A DNA stretch of 28,347 bases from a virus: the IMG/VR virus record IMGVR_UViG_3300041407_000052, positions 1 to 28,347 of that record; one strand, given 5' to 3'. The position numbers and the translations under genes were made by a program. Below, piece by piece: positions 6,652 through 24,895 of the stretch (positions are counted from its first letter, which is position 1; each line of letters opens with the position of its first letter). Under the pieces are notes generated by a model that saw only the letters and a list, made by a program, of their open reading frames with translations, had not been told where the DNA came from and did not search any database.

Positions 6652-7900
6652 GAAGAATCTGTTCGGTTTGGAAAAGAATGGTGATGTAAAGGTTTGGTTG
6701 ATCAGAATTGAGGACGTGTTCTGTGATCACCCTGAAGTTATGTTGGTCATCACCCATGGTAAAGAAGGTGGTAAACTCACAGTTAAGAATGAGAGCGTGA
6801 CTCAAGGTAAGCAAGGTCGTACTGTTTACGAACAAGCTGTTTTGCAAGCTGAAGCTCGTATCAAGAAACAATTAGCTAAGAACTATCGTGAGAACCGTGA
6901 CGACCTGTTCGAAGAACTACCCATTATTGCCATGCTTGCTAAAGATGCATCTATGGAGAAACTGGAAAAGGTTAAGTTCAAGTACAAAGAAGGCATACTG
7001 GTTTCTGACAAGCTTGACGGTTTCCGCTGCCTTGCTAAATGCTTTATGTCTCCACACTTCGGTATTAAAACAGTTACGATTGAGTCTCGCACAGGTGAGA
7101 TTTACAAAGTTCCACACATCGAAGAAGAACTTCTTGGGTTCATGGAGCCGGGCGATATCCTCGACGGTGAGCTTTACGTACATGGTCCTGTACTAGAAGA
7201 AATCTCCAGTGCTGTAAAGCGGACAGATCCACAAGAAAAGATCAACGAGACATACCTTAAAGTTGCAAAGCAACTGAATAAACATGGTCCTGATAGTCCT
7301 GAATACGCAAAAGCAAAAACAGAGTATGCTCAAGCAAATGAAATTGCTAAGATTCGTGGCCAGCTTGAGTTCCGTGTATTCGACTTCGTTACTCTGTATG
7401 ATCCATTTGTGGTTCGTCTCGACAAACTGAATAAGTATGCGGATGAGCGATTCATTGACGGTGGTAAAGTATTCAAAGTTGCGTACATTACTGTCTTCTC
7501 GAAAGAGGAACTTCGTGCTGCCCACAAAGATGCTGTAGAACGTGGTTTCGAAGGTGTAATGGTTCGTACACTTGAGGGTGAATACGAGAGCGGTAAGCGT
7601 TCAGGCGGACTGTGGAAGTACAAAGAGTTCATGGATGCAGAATTCCAAATCTTGGATATTGTACCTGACAAACAAGGTCATGCTGTGTTCGTGCTTCGTA
7701 ACAACAAGAATGGTAATGTCTTTCAGTGTGTTATGGGTGATATGGAACAACGTGCTTACTACCTTGCAAACAAGCATCTTTTTATCGGTAAGTGGTTGAT
7801 GGTTAAGTTCCAGTCTCTATACAAAAAGACATTGATTCCGCAATTTCCGACTGGTATCATGTTCCGTGAATGCGATGAACAAGGGAATCCTGTTGAATGA
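6644..7900 (+). CDS. ATP-dependent DNA ligase
   Basis: 418-aa enzyme that seals nicks in duplex DNA through a lysyl-AMP intermediate. Nucleotidyltransferase motifs in order: I SDKLDGFR with nucleophile Lys123; Ia ESRTGEIY; III ILDGELY; IV GFEGVMVR; V LWKYKEFMDAEFQILDI; then an OB-fold part ending GKWLMVKFQSLYKK. The first 80 or so residues (DVKVWLIRIED ... TVKNESVTQGKQGRTVYEQA) resemble a WGR-like DNA-binding module. The start at 6644 has GGAG upstream; an earlier in-frame ATG at 6590 lies inside the neighbour and lacks a site. A charged helical insert between motifs III and IV (EKINETYLKVAKQLNKHGPD ...) is unusual. Confidence 0.93.
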   Translation: MFEKNLFGLEKNGDVKVWLIRIEDVFCDHPEVMLVITHGKEGGKLTVKNESVTQGKQGRTVYEQAVLQAEARIKKQLAKNYRENRDDLFEELPIIAMLAKDASMEKLEKVKFKYKEGILVSDKLDGFRCLAKCFMSPHFGIKTVTIESRTGEIYKVPHIEEELLGFMEPGDILDGELYVHGPVLEEISSAVKRTDPQEKINETYLKVAKQLNKHGPDSPEYAKAKTEYAQANEIAKIRGQLEFRVFDFVTLYDPFVVRLDKLNKYADERFIDGGKVFKVAYITVFSKEELRAAHKDAVERGFEGVMVRTLEGEYESGKRSGGLWKYKEFMDAEFQILDIVPDKQGHAVFVLRNNKNGNVFQCVMGDMEQRAYYLANKHLFIGKWLMVKFQSLYKKTLIPQFPTGIMFRECDEQGNPVE

Positions 7901-15345: not shown

Positions 15346-15590
15346 GCGACAAACAATGTCCTTGCTGTCGTCGTAAACATGTAGGTCCAATCAAGACATG
15401 GAGACGCAACACACAGTACATAGACGATGTTCTAAACTGTATGACAACTTGCGTGCACTGCATTGCAGAAGACGATATCAACTACGCATATCAGTGGGCA
15501 GAATATTACAACGGGACCGGTGCTGGTGGTTACTCACACTACACCGACTTCCTCATCAACAGACGTTGGCCTTGGAGAGAATTACGATGA
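15342..15590 (+). CDS. 82-aa Cys-rich, HNH-fold-like protein
   Basis: Begins with a CPCC knuckle (KQCPCCRRKHVG) and has a second pair (CMTTCVHCIAED); the end is Tyr- and Trp-rich (YYNGTGAGGYSHYTDFLINR). Two CxxC pairs suggest a bound zinc. It could be a minimal zinc ribbon or an eroded HNH protein. ATGA-coupled both sides. Confidence 0.6.
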   Translation: MSDKQCPCCRRKHVGPIKTWRRNTQYIDDVLNCMTTCVHCIAEDDINYAYQWAEYYNGTGAGGYSHYTDFLINRRWPWRELR

Positions 15591-17239: not shown

Positions 17240-17255
17240 CGCGGGGTTTTCTTTT
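17231..17255 (+). terminator. Rho-independent terminator of the rightward operon
   Basis: Stem CCTCGC/GCGGGG (17231-17246) with a TAAC loop that holds the last gene's stop codon, followed by TTTTCTTTT. There is no T-tract on the minus strand, so it should not stop leftward transcripts. Confidence 0.85.
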
Positions 17256-17454
17256 ACCCTGAATTTCATTTTCCCCTATTTTGACTTCCCTGATTTACAC
17301 TTTTCCCTGTAAATCCAGTTCCTGAAATCCCGTCTTGTTAGTTATTCAACTGTCGGTAAATCCCTATTCGTTTAACGGAAGTAGCTCTAATGGGTTTAAC
17401 GCCCCGGACTTCAGGCAGCTACCGCCCGTCGGTATAATTCTAAAATCCCTAGAG
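17256..17454. other. Gene-free segment: GGA-rich on minus strand, then a branched fold
   Basis: No gene seen. On the minus strand 17256-17334 has six GGA triplets, one (GGGAAAAG) in the loop of an 8-bp stem (GATTTACA/TGTAAATC, 17292-17315). Further right, GTAGCT (17381-17386) can pair with AGCTAC (17417-17422) around a small GGG/CCC hairpin, suggesting a branched RNA fold. Confidence 0.45.
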
Positions 17455-17471
17455 TTGGCATAAACCTTGCT
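17455..17471 (+). promoter_or_regulatory. Candidate sigma54 (RpoN) promoter
   Basis: TTGGCATAAACCTTGCT has the -24 GG and -12 GC elements exactly ten bases apart and matches most of the TTGGCACG-N4-TTGCW consensus. It would read rightward into the hairpin array. Only about seven positions are strongly fixed, so chance is a real possibility. Confidence 0.35.
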
Positions 17472-17479
17472 AAGTGATT

Positions 17480-18237
17480 CGGTTGATCACCATATGTGAA
17501 TGATTATCATTCAATGTCATTTAACATAATACCTATTACACGCACAGCTGCATCCCCTCCCTTGGTATGCACCGGGAAGGTATTGTCTATCGATGGGTTG
17601 GGTATGAGTGGTTGTCTCTATCTGGCTGCATTGCACAGCCTTACCACAATGTTTCACTATACGCCCATGTGGGCAGAATGTACACCTTTTATTCATTTAT
17701 TTGTGCAGAATGCACGTATTGTTGAATGATAATGATTATTATTTACCTTGATAAATCAAGGGTATTTTATACTCTATCCCATATAATGGGATGATAGTGA
17801 GTGTGGGATGCTTAGATCATTGTCCCAATGTTCAGCATACCCAAGAATAGTAATATTCAGTGAATAGTCAATATTATGTCGTTATTACGACATGTACTGT
17901 CAATGTTATGGCTTGTAAGCCATGATCTATAAGGCTTTGAGAGAAGCGGTATATGATGTGCTATGCACATGGTAGGGGTGCTGCACTGCTATGCAGTGAG
18001 TGGTACTGTAGGAGGTTACAGAGGGTATACTACCGTATACTAAGGAAGAGAACAGGGGTTACTACCCTGTTTCTATATCTGATATGTACGCCTGTTATGT
18101 ATACATAACAATAGGTAATTCTATAACGTTATACGTTATAATAGTATTCTTTAATACATACTCTTTGTTCTTGTGGGGTTTATCCCCACTCTTTCCTGTC
18201 TCTCTAATACCTATTCACCCGTTACTACGGGTGGACA
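17480..18237 (-). ncRNA. Tandem hairpin array, possible large structured non-coding RNA
   Basis: About 20 short inverted repeats follow one another with little spacer. Examples: 17497-17513, 17624-17640, 17663-17674, 17703-17715, 17746-17761, 17772-17801, 17805-17842, 17851-17876, 17876-17893, 17908-17923, 17956-17970, 17984-17998, 18006-18021, 18025-18040, 18051-18071, 18093-18110, 18123-18139, 18173-18189 and 18216-18233. Most stems are 5-8 bp and perfect, with 3-6-base loops. Stem sequences differ, so these are not copies of one repeat. A strong minus-strand promoter at 18244-18273 would place hairpin 18216-18233 at the 5' end of a leftward RNA. There is no terminator on the minus strand, so the 3' end is unknown. 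A replication or packaging site is the main alternative. Confidence 0.55.
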
Positions 18238-18243
18238 TAGGGC

Positions 18244-18273
18244 ATTATAATAAGAAAATGCTGTTTATGTCAA
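18244..18273 (-). promoter_or_regulatory. Strong sigma70-type promoter reading into the hairpin array
   Basis: On the minus strand: perfect -35 TTGACA (18268-18273), 18-bp spacer, perfect -10 TATAAT (18244-18249). No gene lies downstream, only the hairpin array. Confidence 0.7.
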
Positions 18274-18310
18274 TACAGTATGGTTAAAGTACGTTTAAAT
18301 AGGTTGATTC

Positions 18311-18375
18311 TGCTAACAATCTGTGATAATCGGGTACATCATGCTAACAACTGATGATAATGAGAATAATTATTG
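18311..18375. repeat. Short direct repeat and Fur-box-like sequence
   Basis: TGCTAACAA.CTG.TGATAAT occurs twice, about 32 bases apart (near 18311 and 18342). The second copy runs into GATAATGAGAATAATTATTG (18356-18375), which closely resembles a Fur box. No gene is present. Confidence 0.4.
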
Positions 18376-18385
18376 CTTGCATGAG

Positions 18386-18404
18386 AAAGCCCCTTTCGGG
18401 GCTT
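18386..18404 (-). terminator. Bidirectional-type terminator of the leftmost minus-strand gene
   Basis: AAGCCCC/GGGGCTT stem with TTTC loop. On the minus strand it is followed by a modest T-run (TTTCTC). It lies directly beyond the parS site at 18406 and ends the 18423-18632 unit. Confidence 0.75.
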
Positions 18405-18405
18405 G

Positions 18406-18421
18406 TGTTTCACGTGGAACA
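18406..18421. promoter_or_regulatory. parS: parS-like ParB-binding site 1
   Basis: TGTTTCACGTGGAACA is the bacterial chromosomal parS sequence with one asymmetric base (palindrome form TGTTTCACGTGAAACA). ParB loads here as a CTP-dependent clamp and spreads. It lies between a stop codon (18423) and a terminator. Confidence 0.85.
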
Positions 18422-18422
18422 A

Positions 18423-18632
18423 TTAGAAAGGGTTTCCCCACTCTGCAATAACATCAGCATTGGCACGTTCGAAGCATTCAGGCGTGAAACCTTTACCACC
18501 CAACTGCTTAGCCCAATAGTCAAGGCGTTTGCTACGGAATGCAGCCACTTTCATTCCTGTACTAATCGAACCATAGCCTTTCGGTGGATTGCTTTGACTT
18601 GCACAGTGTGACATCAGATTGGAAGATTTCAT
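18423..18632 (-). CDS. Hypothetical 69-aa protein
   Basis: AGGAG precedes the ATG. Sequence: Ser/Gly-rich start (SHCASQSNPPKGYGSISTG) then a basic segment (AAFRSKRLDYWAKQLGGKG). It has its own promoter at 18673-18701. No family recognised. Confidence 0.7.
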   Translation of the reverse strand: MKSSNLMSHCASQSNPPKGYGSISTGMKVAAFRSKRLDYWAKQLGGKGFTPECFERANADVIAEWGNPF

Positions 18633-18672
18633 TTAGAGAACTCCTGTTGTGGTACTTTGGTTTAGATAAGTC

Positions 18673-18701
18673 ATTGTAAGCACTTATCCAACAAGGTGCA
18701 A
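18673..18701 (-). promoter_or_regulatory. Early-type promoter with operator-like inverted repeat
   Basis: -35 TTGCAC (18696-18701), 17-bp spacer, -10 TACAAT (18673-18678), with an A-rich stretch upstream as in the sister promoters. The -10 sits between the arms of an 8-bp inverted repeat (GATAAGT/ACTTATC, about 18665-18689), a typical repressor-operator layout. Confidence 0.65.
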
Positions 18702-18705
18702 TCTT

Positions 18706-18954
18706 TTATTCACTAATTATCTCGGTTGTTTGAATGGTTACAGCCTTGAATGTAACACCTTGAGCCAATTGACCATCAAAACCTATACAACGACTAGTCG
18801 CCTTTAACGCAGCCATTTTTGCATCTTCAAGGTTGTCAAACTTCATTGCATTGTTAATCGATCCCATACATGCGGTTCCCCACTCCTTATCCCATGCATA
18901 AAGGTAGTCAGAATTGGATTTACCGTAGAAGCGTTTGACTACAAAAGTGTTCAT
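18706..18954 (-). CDS. Hypothetical 82-aa protein
   Basis: ATGA overlap with the gene upstream of it. Reads FVVKRFYGKSNSDYLYAWDK and has a helix MKFDNLEDAKMAALKATSRC; similar 'F-x-x-x-x-x-A-x-x-A' helices occur in other proteins of this region. Function unknown. Confidence 0.7.
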   Translation of the reverse strand: MNTFVVKRFYGKSNSDYLYAWDKEWGTACMGSINNAMKFDNLEDAKMAALKATSRCIGFDGQLAQGVTFKAVTIQTTEIISE

Positions 18955-19085
18955 GCTTTCACCTTGTTAGGAATGAGTTTAGTTCCGCAATGCCCACACC
19001 ATGCAAAGCCTTCTGCTACGATTGGTCTGTGCTTGCTTAGCTTACCGTGCAAAGCACCACACTTAGAGCATGGTTTGTATTTCAT
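18951..19085 (-). CDS. 44-aa zinc-ribbon microprotein
   Basis: Two CxxC pairs (Cys6, Cys9 in YKPCSKCGALHG; Cys30, Cys33 in WCGHCGTKLIP) form a complete zinc ribbon. Coupled to both neighbours (ATGA to 18954; two bases after the upstream gene's stop at 19088). Such microproteins in phage early regions often bind host proteins or nucleic acid. Confidence 0.7.
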   Translation of the reverse strand: MKYKPCSKCGALHGKLSKHRPIVAEGFAWCGHCGTKLIPNKVKA

Positions 19086-19087
19086 GA

Positions 19088-19633
19088 TTAAACCCCAGCT
19101 TTGTTGTAAGTGGTCCAAGCTTCTACAAACTCGGGTGATTTAACAAGATCATCCATTAGTGAGTTGATATTGTCTTGATTGACTAGGATCATGTCAACAC
19201 ACCGTTGGGCGGTTGCTTCTGGTGTACCAGTTGCCAACATTTGCTGTTTAACGAATGCTTTAGCAATGTTTAAAGCATTCTGAAATGCATCAGCACGCGC
19301 TTGGAACTTCGCGTTGCTTGCTGCTTCACGGTCTGCATTGCGTTGGTTGGATTCAACCTGAGCCACTTGTTTAGCTTCGAACTGTTCCGAAGTCAGGCGA
19401 TTGAATGTGATTTCGACCTTACCCGAAGTTGCAAGATGTTTTTCAACCCGGACAACACCTGTTGCATCACAGATGTAAAACAAGGTGTAAGAGTTGCGGT
19501 ATACAGCACCACCAGTGACGAATGTATTTTCTTCTTGACATTGTGCCAGAAGAAACTTTGCCTGCGCTTCGGATTTGAAAAAGCCATTGTTAGACTTGAC
19601 AAGCGAAGCGAAAGAAACGGCAATGTTCGACAT
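19088..19633 (-). CDS. Hypothetical 181-aa protein, coiled-coil-rich
   Basis: The largest gene of the minus-strand region. The N-terminal part is globular (VSFASLVKSNNGFFKSEAQA, then VYRNSYTLFYICDATGVVRV); from about residue 80 comes an Ala/Gln/Glu-rich helix (SEQFEAKQVAQVESNQRNAD) likely to coil. TGGAGATT precedes the ATG. First gene behind the promoter at 19682-19709. No family recognised. Confidence 0.75.
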   Translation of the reverse strand: MSNIAVSFASLVKSNNGFFKSEAQAKFLLAQCQEENTFVTGGAVYRNSYTLFYICDATGVVRVEKHLATSGKVEITFNRLTSEQFEAKQVAQVESNQRNADREAASNAKFQARADAFQNALNIAKAFVKQQMLATGTPEATAQRCVDMILVNQDNINSLMDDLVKSPEFVEAWTTYNKAGV

Positions 19634-19653
19634 GGTGAATCTCCAGAAACTTA

Positions 19654-19669
19654 GGAGGCTTTTGCCTCC
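19654..19669 (-). promoter_or_regulatory. 5' leader hairpin of the 19633 unit
   Basis: GGAGGC/GCCTCC stem with four-base loop between promoter and Shine-Dalgarno. Several early units have a leader hairpin at this position with different but complementary stems. Confidence 0.6.
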
Positions 19670-19681
19670 CTTCTGTTAATC

Positions 19682-19709
19682 ATTTTACAGCTTTTAGAGA
19701 AGGGTGCAA
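19682..19709 (-). promoter_or_regulatory. Early promoter of the 19633-18706 unit
   Basis: -35 TTGCAC (19704-19709), 16-bp spacer with the shared CCTTCTCTAAAA block, -10 TAAAAT (19682-19687). AAAATAA lies upstream of the -35. Confidence 0.8.
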
Positions 19710-19711
19710 CA

Positions 19712-19905
19712 ATTATTTTCAATGCTCTATAAGCTCATATAACGCGTTTTGAGCAACGATAATTTGAGGCTTGATGTTGCTATGTCTTTGGGTTTAAAAC
19801 GTCGTACCAATATGTATGCCAACATTGGAAGACAGTGTGGGAAAATTACGTGCCAATGTTAAATAGCAGGCTCCTCTGGTGATTGCCTCTGACCCTCACC
19901 AGTAA
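19712..19905 (-). ncRNA. Non-coding cassette 1 (homologue of cassette 2)
   Basis: About 190 bases without a convincing gene, between a weak promoter (19910-19939) and the next promoter. It starts with hairpin CTGGTGA/TCACCAG (19876-19902), has a long stem AACATTGG/CCAATGTT, and shares with cassette 2 the blocks TTGGTACGACGTTTTAA (around 19794-19810) and CTCAAAACGC (19744-19753). Confidence 0.4.
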
Positions 19906-19909
19906 CTGT

Positions 19910-19939
19910 ATTGTACAACAATTTTTAGAACCATGTCTA
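19910..19939 (-). promoter_or_regulatory. Weak early-type promoter of non-coding cassette 1
   Basis: -35 TAGACA (19934-19939), 18-bp spacer, -10 TACAAT (19910-19915). The AAAATAA upstream block and TTCTAAAA in the spacer match the early promoter family. Confidence 0.5.
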
Positions 19940-19960
19940 TAATTATTTTAGGCAAAGAAA

Positions 19961-19983
19961 AACCCCGACAAAGCGGGGTTATA
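19961..19983 (-). terminator. Terminator after the 20203-19997 gene
   Basis: AACCCCG/CGGGGTT stem on the minus strand followed by TTTTTCTTT. The loop context CGACAAAG recurs in the terminators at 22260 and 26955. Confidence 0.85.
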
Positions 19984-19996
19984 TGTTCAAACGGGT

Positions 19997-20203
19997 TTAT
20001 CCACCATATTTCTGGTTAAGTAGCTCACCGATATGCAATCGATATTCATCGGGCATTGATTCATAGTCTTGAATGGTGAAACGTGAAGACATGGCAAGCG
20101 CAAGACATTCGGCTTTCTCTGCTCGCTCTTCCATCTTCTTAAGTGCTGCCTTCAACTGGTTAACATAAACCCGTGTTAGTTGGACATTGCTAAGCGCTTT
20201 CAT
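19997..20203 (-). CDS. Hypothetical 68-aa helical protein
   Basis: AAAGGAC precedes the ATG at 20203. A longer frame would start at a TTG inside the parS site (20230) and is not preferred. Contains a basic coiled-coil-like helix (VNQLKAALKKMEERAEKAEC) and a second helix ending ELLNQKYGG. Unknown. Confidence 0.75.
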   Translation of the reverse strand: MKALSNVQLTRVYVNQLKAALKKMEERAEKAECLALAMSSRFTIQDYESMPDEYRLHIGELLNQKYGG

Positions 20204-20213
20204 GTTAGTCCTT

Positions 20214-20229
20214 TGTTTCACGTGAAACA
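20214..20229. promoter_or_regulatory. parS: parS site 2, perfect palindrome
   Basis: TGTTTCACGTGAAACA, identical to the canonical 16-bp ParB recognition palindrome. It lies between the stop of the 20233-20430 gene and the start of the 19997-20203 gene, overlapping no likely coding sequence. Confidence 0.92.
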
Positions 20230-20232
20230 ACT

Positions 20233-20430
20233 TTAAAAGATTATTTCTTGACGAATGATAATGATGTCAGCTACTTCAATCTGTTCTCTTGACCACAACT
20301 CACCATACCACAACTTAGATGTTGCCTCATCATGTGAATCAGTGTGCAACAAATCTAACATGTTGCATTCAAACTGTTCACGTTCGCCTGTACTCTTGTT
20401 ATAGGCTGTGAAAGTTATTTTGGTAATCAT
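20233..20430 (-). CDS. Hypothetical 65-aa acidic protein
   Basis: GGGGG lies upstream of the ATG. It begins with a beta-strand pair (ITKITFTAYNKSTGEREQFE) and ends hydrophobic (VADIIIIRQEIIF). Second gene of the 20665 unit. No family. Confidence 0.7.
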   Translation of the reverse strand: MITKITFTAYNKSTGEREQFECNMLDLLHTDSHDEATSKLWYGELWSREQIEVADIIIIRQEIIF

Positions 20431-20452
20431 GTACGTACCCCCAGTACCTCAA

Positions 20453-20665
20453 TTATTGACCTTTGCACATTTTACCAGCATACATGATGTAACTGGCTTT
20501 ACCTTCTGCGCAAGCTTTAACAGCATTTTCATGTTGCTGAGCTTTGAATACAACAGCATTTGCAGCAACTTCTTTTGCACGGTAATGATCACCAACAACA
20601 GGGGCCACTTGCGAGATTGCCATGATCAGACCAAAGAACAGTGCAATACCGGAAAAGAAGTTCAT
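20453..20665 (-). CDS. 70-aa secreted or membrane-anchored protein
   Basis: The first 22 residues are hydrophobic (MNFFSGIALFFGLIMAISQV), a signal peptide or single membrane helix. The rest is soluble with two Cys (ACAEGKASYIMYAGKMCKGQ) that could form a periplasmic disulfide. Leader AAAGGAATACGCAC before the ATG is the conserved early ribosome-binding leader. Confidence 0.7.
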   Translation of the reverse strand: MNFFSGIALFFGLIMAISQVAPVVGDHYRAKEVAANAVVFKAQQHENAVKACAEGKASYIMYAGKMCKGQ

Positions 20666-20685
20666 GTGCGTATTCCTTTAGTAGT

Positions 20686-20705
20686 GGGAGGCTGTTTCGC
20701 CTCCC
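20686..20705 (-). promoter_or_regulatory. 5' leader hairpin of the 20665 unit
   Basis: Perfect GGGAGGC/GCCTCCC stem, six-base loop, beginning a few bases after the predicted transcription start. Confidence 0.65.
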
Positions 20706-20715
20706 TATGTGTTGT

Positions 20716-20743
20716 ATTCTACAGCTTTTAGAGAAGGTTACAA
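20716..20743 (-). promoter_or_regulatory. Early promoter of the 20665-19997 unit
   Basis: -35 TTGTAA (20738-20743), 16-bp spacer containing CCTTCTCTAAAA, -10 TAGAAT (20716-20721). The -35 lies next to the stop codon of the upstream gene (20747). Confidence 0.75.
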
Positions 20744-20746
20744 GCT

Positions 20747-20917
20747 TTATTTGTAGTTGTTCAAAGCCTTTTGCATGGCTTTATAACCATTGGCTTGCTC
20801 TGTGAGGTTGGAGTATGTGACAACTTTAGTAGCGTCAGCGTGCATCACGGAACCGAAAGGACCATAAACAACGAAACCGTTAGTGCCTTTGATTACTTGA
20901 ATTTGATTAGCGTTCAT
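20747..20917 (-). CDS. Hypothetical 56-aa protein
   Basis: AAGGTGAT precedes the ATG at 20917. Reads MNANQIQVIKGTNGFVVYGP, then a helix (TEQANGYKAMQKALNNYK). It is the only gene between the promoters at 20968 and 20716. Unknown. Confidence 0.65.
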   Translation of the reverse strand: MNANQIQVIKGTNGFVVYGPFGSVMHADATKVVTYSNLTEQANGYKAMQKALNNYK

Positions 20918-20937
20918 ACTATCACCTTGAGCTGTTT

Positions 20938-20957
20938 GAGTGGCTGTCTTGCCTCTC
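20938..20957 (-). promoter_or_regulatory. 5' leader hairpin of the 20917 unit
   Basis: GAGTGGC/GCCTCTC stem with one mismatch and a six-base loop, at the same place as the other leader hairpins. Confidence 0.5.
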
Positions 20958-20967
20958 TATGTGTCCA

Positions 20968-20995
20968 ATTCTACAGTGTTTAGAAAACCATGCAA
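20968..20995 (-). promoter_or_regulatory. Early promoter of the 20917 gene
   Basis: -35 TTGCAT (20990-20995), 16-bp spacer with TTTTCTAAA, -10 TAGAAT (20968-20973). AAAATAA upstream of the -35. Confidence 0.75.
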
Positions 20996-20999
20996 GTAT

Positions 21000-21218
21000 T
21001 ATTTTCAATCTTTTAGAAAAGAATTCATAGGCTCTGTAACGCTCTATAATGCGTTTTGAGCGACGTTATAACCTACCCTTCACACTGCCATGTCTTTTGG
21101 ATTAAAACGTCGTACCAAGAAGCGTGCCAAGTCTGCTCTCTATATTGTATGCTATTATCATGCCAACTAGGAACGTCACCCACTCTCCCTGTTTGTCTCG
21201 TGCTAAATTCCACACCAT
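21000..21218 (-). ncRNA. Non-coding cassette 2 (homologue of cassette 1)
   Basis: About 220 bases between the promoter at 21225-21252 and the promoter at 20968. It shares blocks with cassette 1: TTGGTACGACGTTTTAA (around 21102-21118) and CTCAAAACGC (21051-21060), 57-58 bases apart in both. CGACGTT can pair with AACGTCG to give a long hairpin. A 38-codon frame begins at an ATG exactly at the predicted transcription start (21218) and ends inside the conserved block; coding or non-coding is open. Confidence 0.45.
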
Positions 21219-21224
21219 GACAAT

Positions 21225-21252
21225 ATTCTATCAGTATGTGACTGGAATGCAA
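21225..21252 (-). promoter_or_regulatory. Promoter of non-coding cassette 2
   Basis: -35 TTGCAT (21247-21252), 16-bp spacer, -10 TAGAAT (21225-21230). The first downstream ATG lies seven bases after the -10. Confidence 0.65.
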
Positions 21253-21271
21253 GGAATATTAACACATAGGT

Positions 21272-21295
21272 AAAAGCCCCAATCAAGGGGCTTTC
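21272..21295 (-). terminator. Terminator after the 22163-21297 unit
   Basis: AGCCCC/GGGGCT stem (21275-21292), loop TTGATT, T-run on the minus strand (TTTTA). It follows the stop at 21297 directly. Confidence 0.8.
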
Positions 21296-21296
21296 T

Positions 21297-21434
21297 TCAA
21301 GGTAGACGGTTTGGATTGAAGGTTAATCGATGGGCTAACAATTGTTTGTACAACTGTACTCTATCCGGTGATACCCGTGCATCAATCCAATTACGCATGA
21401 TGTACTTGCGTTTGAGCATTTGAATAGCGTTCAT
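21297..21434 (-). CDS. Hypothetical 45-aa basic protein
   Basis: ATGA overlap with the gene before it. Very basic (IQMLKRKYIMRNWIDARVSP, ending LAHRLTFNPNRLP), likely to contact nucleic acid or an acidic host protein. Last gene before the terminator. Confidence 0.65.
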   Translation of the reverse strand: MNAIQMLKRKYIMRNWIDARVSPDRVQLYKQLLAHRLTFNPNRLP

Positions 21435-21754
21435 CGTAAACCCTTTTCTATGTAGTCAGTATGCCAGTCAATAATGTCCTTCAATGCCTTCTCAGTCCTG
21501 AAACTGTAATCAGTCAGTACCTGATTCCCGTCAAGGTCAAAGGCATAAAACATACTGTTCCACACACCTTTGACAATTTCAATTCGCTTATAGAGTGCTG
21601 TACTCCTTACAAGCTCATACGCTTGAGAAGCGGCATATGTACTGGCTTCTTCTTCGGAATCAAAACAGGTAGACACAAGTAACCCTTTATCTTTACCTGT
21701 AAGCATTCGCAATGACCAGTGTGTGCGGTACTTTTCAATCTTTACTAACAACAT
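21431..21754 (-). CDS. Hypothetical 107-aa protein
   Basis: GGTGAG upstream. Mixed fold: VKIEKYRTHWSLRMLTGKDK, a helix (EEEASTYAASQAYELVRSTA), then strands and a second helix (EKALKDIIDWHTDYIEKG). The pattern of repeated strand-helix units fits an early host-modulating protein but no family is recognised. Confidence 0.7.
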   Translation of the reverse strand: MLLVKIEKYRTHWSLRMLTGKDKGLLVSTCFDSEEEASTYAASQAYELVRSTALYKRIEIVKGVWNSMFYAFDLDGNQVLTDYSFRTEKALKDIIDWHTDYIEKGLR

Positions 21755-21755
21755 G

Positions 21756-22163
21756 TTAGTTACTCACCTTCTGAAGCGTCAAACCAACAATACCACCAGC
21801 GTTATAAATCACACGTTCAATAGTTGTCATTGGAACGTTGCAACACACAGTACCATCAAAATATTGCTCTAGCTCTTTAGGGAATTCACCAGAACAATGC
21901 AGTAGTTCGAACGATTCGTATAACGAATATTGTTGATTGGTTCGTGGCGTGCAGTAATGAAAATCGCTCGCCTGAATGCTAACCCTGTCACCGTTGGCGA
22001 GTTGCAAAGGTGGAACAACACGGACAGAACGAAGCACCCCACTTTTAGTTTGCAGGCTTTCCTGCATCCATGTAGTGAAGTGCTTTTGACTTCCATCCGT
22101 GTATTGAGAAACTACAGCTGGATAGGATTCGTCTTTAGCAATGTACACTTGTTGACCGTTCAT
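21756..22163 (-). CDS. Hypothetical 135-aa protein
   Basis: Conserved early leader AAGGAATACGAAT before the ATG. Beta-rich, no membrane segment (YIAKDESYPAVVSQYTDGSQ; PPLQLANGDRVSIQASDFHY; NAGGIVGLTLQKVSN). First gene behind the promoter at 22191. Unknown. Confidence 0.7.
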   Translation of the reverse strand: MNGQQVYIAKDESYPAVVSQYTDGSQKHFTTWMQESLQTKSGVLRSVRVVPPLQLANGDRVSIQASDFHYCTPRTNQQYSLYESFELLHCSGEFPKELEQYFDGTVCCNVPMTTIERVIYNAGGIVGLTLQKVSN

Positions 22164-22190
22164 ATTCGTATTCCTTGGTTAGTGACACCT

Positions 22191-22218
22191 ATTTTACAGG
22201 CTTTAGAAAAGGTTGCAA
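22191..22218 (-). promoter_or_regulatory. Early promoter of the 22163-21297 unit
   Basis: -35 TTGCAA (22213-22218), 16-bp spacer with CCTTTTCTAAAG, -10 TAAAAT (22191-22196), AAAATAAAG upstream. Confidence 0.8.
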
Positions 22219-22259
22219 GCTTTATTTTCAGACGTTTTGAAAGAAAATGTAGACGAAGG

Positions 22260-22283
22260 AAAGCCCCGACAAAGCGAGGCTTT
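22260..22283 (-). terminator. Terminator after the 23839-22301 unit
   Basis: AAAGCC(T)CG/CGGGGCTTT stem with the recurring CTTTGT loop, then a T-run on the minus strand. It lies directly beyond the third parS site. Confidence 0.75.
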
Positions 22284-22284
22284 G

Positions 22285-22300
22285 TGTTTCACGTGGAACA
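22285..22300. promoter_or_regulatory. parS: parS-like ParB-binding site 3
   Basis: TGTTTCACGTGGAACA, identical to site 1. It sits immediately after the stop codon (22301-22303) of a small gene and before a terminator, the same placement as site 1. Confidence 0.85.
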
Positions 22301-22510
22301 TCACACGGTTATGGTGATTCGTGTTCCTTTGACTTCAAAGTCTAGTAAGAAAAGTTGTAGAAGTTCCTCACGGCTGAAAACTTTTGACGTATAGATGTCA
22401 TGTCGGTTAATGCCAAGATCGGCAACCAACTGTAAAGCCGAAGGACAAGGTTCACGACCTAAGACAATATAGACAGACCATTCAAACTGTGAAACGTCAG
22501 GGTTTGACAT
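22301..22510 (-). CDS. Hypothetical 69-aa protein
   Basis: GAGGTGTAAC before the ATG, one base after the previous stop. Alpha/beta (QFEWSVYIVLGREPCPSALQ, then FSREELLQLFLLDFEVKGT). Last gene of its unit. Unknown. Confidence 0.7.
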   Translation of the reverse strand: MSNPDVSQFEWSVYIVLGREPCPSALQLVADLGINRHDIYTSKVFSREELLQLFLLDFEVKGTRITITV

Positions 22511-24413: not shown

Positions 24414-24647
24414 TCACTTGTGTGATTCTACAGGAACAAAACCCATGTCGCAAAGTAAACAGTATGTTTCCTGCATCAGTTGAGATTGTTCATCCTTACC
24501 AAATGCCAACCAAAACTCACGACCTACGCAATCAGCAAAGGACTCATCACCAGCGGTCCCATCGATCAACCGATATCGATATGCAGCCGCTTCCATGATG
24601 TCAGCAAGCTTTGCAAGCTTTGTATCTTTTTCATCAAGTGGTAACAT
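24414..24647 (-). CDS. Hypothetical 77-aa protein
   Basis: Textbook early cassette: promoter, leader hairpin, AAAGGAGATACGAAC, ATG. Helical, acidic (DTKLAKLADIMEAAAYRYRL, then SQLMQETYCLLCDMGFVPVE). Unknown. Confidence 0.7.
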   Translation of the reverse strand: MLPLDEKDTKLAKLADIMEAAAYRYRLIDGTAGDESFADCVGREFWLAFGKDEQSQLMQETYCLLCDMGFVPVESHK

Positions 24648-24662
24648 GTTCGTATCTCCTTT

Positions 24663-24680
24663 GGGAGAACAATTTCTCCC
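24663..24680 (-). promoter_or_regulatory. 5' leader hairpin of the 24647 unit
   Basis: Perfect GGGAGAA/TTCTCCC stem, CAAT loop region (24670-24673). Confidence 0.65.
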
Positions 24681-24692
24681 TTCTTGACGCCC

Positions 24693-24720
24693 ATTCTACA
24701 GGCTTTAGAAAAGGTGTCAA
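24693..24720 (-). promoter_or_regulatory. Early promoter of the 24647-23916 unit
   Basis: -35 TTGACA (24715-24720), 16-bp spacer with CCTTTTCTAAAG, -10 TAGAAT (24693-24698). Confidence 0.85.
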
Positions 24721-24724
24721 GCGT

Positions 24725-24895
24725 TTATTTTGTTTCTTTTTCTGGTGGTTTTGATGGGTTGGTATCACCACAACCAGTACAGCAATATCCACGTTTCACA
24801 GCGGAACCACATTTCTTACACTGTGTGATAATCAGATACTTATGAGCTAGGTTAATCACTGAGCGTGTCCACTCTTTAGAGCCGTGTTCGATCAT
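24725..24895 (-). CDS. 56-aa zinc-ribbon protein
   Basis: GAGGTGTAAC before the ATG at 24895. Cys pairs CKKC and CCTGC (about 26-42) form a zinc ribbon after a helical start (WTRSVINLAHKYL). Pro/Lys-rich tail. Last gene of its unit. Confidence 0.65.
   Translation of the reverse strand: MIEHGSKEWTRSVINLAHKYLIITQCKKCGSAVKRGYCCTGCGDTNPSKPPEKETK

Follow-up and report, generated by a model that had tools for sequence, protein, structure and literature searches.

The DNA analysed here, referred to as the window, comprises the first 28 kb (28,347 bases) of the IMG/VR virus record IMGVR_UViG_3300041407_000052, a linear metagenomic record of 104,392 bases whose length is like that of complete relatives. 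In the early region of this phage the window carries three exact copies of parS, the 16-bp palindrome TGTTYCACGTGRAACA at which the partition protein ParB loads. These sites are listed below by their window coordinates, with no strand assigned.

18406–18421: parS site A, TGTTTCACGTGGAACA, exact match; the stop codon of the 18423–18632 gene is one base away
20214–20229: parS site B, TGTTTCACGTGAAACA, perfect palindrome and exact match; three bases past the stop codon of the 20233–20430 gene
22285–22300: parS site C, TGTTTCACGTGGAACA, exact match; 0 bases from the stop codon of the 22301–22510 gene

Three parS sites and the absence of ParB and ParA

Exact matching of the motif over the full record returned only sites A, B and C, and tolerating up to three mismatches added just three further places. 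Markov models of orders 1 to 4 built on the phage genome predict about 0.0004 such 16-mers per genome. Furthermore, the three sites lie inside 3.9 kb, a spacing with a P value of about 0.004 for three random points on the phage genome. A preliminary description of the window had located the three 16-mers, seen no other site of this quality there and judged their chance occurrence unlikely; all of this is borne out, and no other exact site exists elsewhere in the record. The same description had placed each site within three bases of the stop codon of a minus-strand gene, in agreement with the measured gaps of 1, 3 and 0 bases for A, B and C, respectively. Site B occupies the gap between the upstream stop codon and the ribosome-binding site that serves the next gene. 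The terminators said to follow two of the sites are confirmed in part: GC-rich hairpins are present past A and C, but a terminator scan flagged only part of that at C and did not flag that at A.

The search for a protein that could read these sites within the phage was negative. Neither PF02195 nor PF17762 matched the phage record, even at an E value of 1, and PF02195 was not found at an E value of 10 in 20 records of the phage group (this one and 19 others), with control genomes positive. In a maximum-sensitivity search of the six-frame open reading frames of this phage, of Ep020 and of the SYP stretches analysed, a profile made from 50 chromosomal ParB proteins of Pseudomonas gave a best E value of 1.9. 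PF01656, of the ParA type, was absent from 14 records including this one and present in all 14 control genomes. No ParB or ParA domain could be detected in this record, and the same was true of those parS-bearing relatives that were tested; the absence holds for the record as given, since a linear metagenomic record may lack a piece. Neither of the components of a self-contained ParABS partition system, an own ParB and an own ParA-type ATPase, was thus found. The lack of a visible parB, first noticed in the early region, extends to the whole record, and the simple alternative of a phage-borne ParB encoded elsewhere is supported by neither the domain nor the profile searches.

The surrounding genes, hairpins and noncoding DNA are as follows.

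18423–18632, minus strand: small gene of 69 amino acids, ending at site A (from the open reading frame list)
20233–20430, minus strand: small gene of 65 amino acids, ending at site B (from the open reading frame list)
19997–20203, minus strand: small gene of 68 amino acids with its ATG at 20203, starting after site B (read from the sequence)
22301–22510, minus strand: small gene of 69 amino acids, ending at site C (from the open reading frame list)
18386–18404, minus strand: GC-rich hairpin past site A, with a strong GC stem and a weak T tail (read from the sequence; not flagged by the terminator scan)
22260–22283, minus strand: GC-rich, terminator-like hairpin past site C (the scan flagged 22268–22254)
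17240–18400, no strand assigned: noncoding DNA of about 1.1 kb, flanked by two gene blocks that converge; it matches the terminal region in those relatives whose genome ends are known

The rightward block, which runs to about 17.24 kb, encodes NAMPT, DNA ligase, a phosphatase, an esterase and many small genes. Past the noncoding stretch lies a leftward block of small genes, with site A at the end of its first gene. Searches of Pfam and PHROGs gave no family for the products of the 18423–18632, 20233–20430 and 19997–20203 genes, and a near-identity BLAST search with the site region matched no named phage.

Conservation among relatives and occurrence in other phages

Using the NAMPT protein as a handle, 44 further IMG/VR records were gathered and scanned for parS. 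Exact sites were found in 8 of the 44, compared with 0 for the reversed-pattern control, and they follow NAMPT at a distance of about 12 to 21 kb, which places them in the region that contains the sites of this phage (contigs being taken as circular where needed). Among the relatives, SYP carries five exact sites, of which two are the terminal-repeat copies of a single site, plus one with a mismatch; Ep020 carries three, REC and phiPsa267 two each (in both cases one per terminal repeat) and Pyxpy01 one. Allowing one mismatch brings in G007, G010, PPSC2 and phiPMW. The recurrence of the sites in the same region answers the objection, raised in the preliminary description, that they might not be conserved across related phages.

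Site A has orthologous sites in G001 and G004. At about 67% flanking identity, the sole change within the G004 site is T to C at degenerate position 5. The stem of the adjoining hairpin is preserved in G001 and rebuilt with altered bases in G004, and the 18423–18632 gene is unaligned in G001, where homology ends at 18424. The orthologue of site B in G033 differs only at a degenerate position, so that substitutions at sites A and B are confined to the two degenerate positions of the motif. Site C is identical at 16 of 16 positions in G001, G002 and G009, with a different upstream gene in each and homology breaking exactly at the edge of the motif; the hairpin beside it is also present in all three. 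The 22301–22510 gene is absent from G001, and there site C and its hairpin adjoin the orthologue of the next gene. In G033, site C has one mismatch. On the evidence of these alignments, the strongest indication of selection comes from such orthologous places, at which the 16-mer has been kept while the flanking genes were replaced.

Other sites occupy non-orthologous places, as in G002, with a parS inside the stretch homologous to the noncoding region, which indicates that sites have been gained and lost among relatives. Where the genome ends of a relative are defined, they coincide with the counterpart of the noncoding stretch, and the sites are therefore terminus-proximal. Direct terminal repeats containing parS occur in SYP (351 bases) and REC (548 bases), and parS also lies within the annotated direct terminal repeat of phiPsa267 and its kin. 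In SYP, three of the four intergenic sites are 0 to 2 bases past a stop codon (P of about 1e-5 for random intergenic placement).

A separate pattern is seen in the early region of phiPMW (NC_041880.1), which has three copies of one single-mismatch variant, TGTTCCACATGGAACA or its complement, at 15422, 20515 and 20735. This triple occurrence suggests altered specificity or parallel change.

The breadth of the motif was analysed with the 16-mer, padded with N, as a BLAST query against 50,697 phage records. The three forms of the motif were found in 147, 58 and 286 of these records, counts that take in duplicate and closely related records and carriers of which some may encode ParB. The reversed sequence was found in 0 records, and the chance expectation in that much random sequence is about one match per form. 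Seven carriers from other lineages or genera were tested for ParB_N, and none scored above the cut-off. Unrelated phages with exact parS and no ParB match include Vibrio phage phi 3, KPP25 and phi29. The T5-like Vibrio phage phi 3 (NC_028895.1) has sites at 821, 2934, 109190 and 111303, two per terminal repeat, of which one abuts a stop codon and the other lies between the A1 and A2 transfer genes. The single site of KPP25 abuts a stop codon, and phi29 has four exact parS 16-mers. Placement next to a stop codon is common to unrelated phages.

Host ParB as the candidate reader

A DnaA fragment query was used to collect 80 dnaA loci, nearly all from Pseudomonas and close kin. The parS motif is present in 77 of the 80 origin loci, showing that the candidate hosts use the same motif; 91 of the 96 sites in these loci read TGTTCCACGTGGAACA and 5 read TGTTCCACGTGAAACA. 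Whole host genomes contain one to three exact 16-mers (20 genomes), versus three in the phage. It has been described that P. aeruginosa ParB binds the half-sites GTTCCAC and GTTTCAC (PMC7022226), so the TTTC form carried by the phage should be readable by a host protein of this kind. We infer Pseudomonas as the host of this phage from its named relatives only.

Taken together, these results make it likely that the phage carries true parS sites, maintained by selection, and that the host's chromosomal ParB reads them. Exact sites in a genome with no ParB or ParA of its own, kept or re-acquired near the genome ends of relatives, indicate that these phages probably recruit host ParB. This possibility had been raised in the preliminary description, and the comparisons, in which no phage ParB was found and relatives keep the sites, support it as the best reading.

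Like the identity of the host, we infer the steps that would follow: ParB binding in vivo, sliding and a benefit in cis. Once phage DNA enters the cell, host ParB would load at parS as a cytidine triphosphate (CTP) clamp and slide across the terminus-proximal early region. A phage molecule bearing such a partition-type complex could then engage host ParA, SMC or the polar machinery. The benefit might consist of tethering or positioning the genome, of SMC loading, or of coating and protecting the newly entered end. Most probably it is exerted in cis, on the DNA of the phage itself, a role favoured by the single site of several relatives and by the gathering of sites at genome ends. More tentatively, parS in or beside terminal repeats, which form the entering end of the DNA, could be a convergent strategy by which unrelated virulent phages capture host ParB, and possibly SMC, at the first moments of infection of hosts that form no spores.

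Several observations weigh against recruitment of host ParB. No site within one mismatch was found in G005, VCM, 16Q, Psxphi15, UNO-G1W1, phiK7A1, Kremar or PAK_P1, and the existence of several such relatives means that the lineage can dispense with parS. Pseudomonas origins nearly always carry TGTTCCACGTGGAACA and never the palindrome of site B. Moreover, the host of this metagenomic record is a candidate one, and ParB binding and any phenotype are predictions. Finally, the sites lie within transcribed units, and the passage of RNA polymerase might displace ParB from the DNA.

Other roles for the sites have to be considered. The sites could act as decoys, with phage replication pulling ParB off the chromosome and thereby stopping host segregation and SMC loading. 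One phage genome equals or exceeds the one to three exact 16-mers of its candidate hosts, replication would multiply the excess, and SGI1 destabilises its helper plasmid by such means (PMC10954446). Titration is nevertheless rather unlikely, given that many relatives have a single site, that the sites cluster near genome ends and not in arrays, and that ParB is non-essential in Pseudomonas, its loss producing only 2–10% anucleate cells (PMC7022226), so that the phage would gain little. Local gene control, with ParB spreading from parS to dampen or time early transcription or to reinforce termination at the hairpins, would fit the position of the sites in this phage and its relatives (0 to 3 bases past stop codons and in many cases ahead of a hairpin), the stop-abutting sites of unrelated phages and the non-random placement in SYP. 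P. aeruginosa ParB is also reported to repress promoters beside parS3 and parS4 (PMC5521831). However, the site stays while the neighbouring genes differ between relatives, and some sites are far from genes, in terminal repeats; we consider this explanation unlikely.

A reader encoded by the phage itself, whether a ParB of strongly diverged sequence or the DndB-like protein with a ParB fold seen in relatives, seems very improbable. DndB has been described as ParB-like (PMC12704722), and members of the DndB family (PF14072) adjoin parS in SYP and G018 and are encoded near it in UAVern, NoPa, Ep020 and Pyxpy01. In this phage, however, no ParB domains were found and there is no DndB homologue (best tblastn E value of 8.4); VCM, Kremar and Psxphi15 have DndB without parS, and the parS-bearing phiPsa267 was not recovered as a DndB hit. 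The DndB-like protein was consequently rejected as the reader in this phage, being absent and not tracking with parS. It is hardly credible that the 16-mers are not protein sites at all. Chance is excluded by the Markov expectation. A recombination seam for gene cassettes predicts the exact break of homology at parS seen against G001, G002 and G009, but a seam has no need for the exact chromosomal consensus, with changes only at positions tolerated by ParB. Symmetric forms of the motif can fold as RNA, which would allow a hairpin after the stop codon; this candidate was rejected because sites A and C read UGUUCCACGUGAAACA on the mRNA strand, which does not fold (0 kcal/mol).

The use of a resident ParB by another genetic element has precedents. 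Spo0J, the ParB of B. subtilis, assists in trapping the phi29 genome within spores (Meijer et al. 2005, as cited in PMC9437464). Both phi29 and the phage described here are virulent, with exact parS and no ParB match. On the other hand, the two belong to unrelated families, the phi29 process requires sporulation, and the phi29 site examined is inside a structural gene, whereas the present sites abut stop codons near genome ends. Pseudomonas, the host of the relatives, does not sporulate. The mobilizable element SGI1 mimics the parS of an IncC plasmid and uses the plasmid ParB for its own stability (PMC10954446); as in this phage, a parS resembling that of another replicon is carried, although SGI1 is a resident element exploiting a plasmid protein, and here a phage and a chromosomal ParB would be involved. 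The phage sites share with the chromosomal parS clusters of Pseudomonas the 14 fixed positions, C/T and A/G at the degenerate ones and the grouping of several sites within a few kb, but they are found in a phage genome (about 104 kb) that lacks parAB, and they mostly have the TTTC half-site instead of the TTCC of the host. P1-type ParABS systems of phages and plasmids also place centromere-like sites on an extrachromosomal genome; unlike them, this genome has no parA or parB.

A literature check by title and abstract, with earlier parS surveys outside its range, found no report of natural parS in lytic Pseudomonas phages. The principle is precedented by phi29 and SGI1; within the range of this check, its extension to phages with relatives that infect non-sporulating hosts appears new. 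Loading of host ParB on phage DNA, if it takes place, would make the segregation machinery a direct participant in the infection of common non-sporulating bacteria. The broad scan, with hundreds of phage records from many lineages and a reversed control of 0, suggests that phi29 is one case of something much wider.

Additional elements of the region

DndB-family proteins (PF14072, phrog_36010) were found in 21 Pseudomonas phage records and at 7671–9125 of L134; several are encoded next to parS, and they also occur in phages without parS.

A perfect sigma-70 promoter (TTGACA, 18 bases, TATAAT) is located at 18273–18244 of the window on the minus strand, directed into the noncoding DNA of the putative genome end. 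No clear gene lies downstream, and its product may be a small RNA or a transcript of the terminus. Fur-box-like 19-mers (GATAATGATAATCATTATC, up to four mismatches) occur at 17728, 18356, 24060 and 24066 of the window and at 29088 and 95704 of the record, in excess over the reversed control, which gave 0. About 30 bases separate one of them from site A, and in SYP the distance between such a 19-mer and the terminal parS is about 24 bases. They might serve as binding sites for the Fur protein of the host or represent an element repeated in the phage. Finally, short promoter-like segments at 20661–20752 and 24645–24733 of the window recur between small genes across relatives, as is typical of a cassette-type early region.

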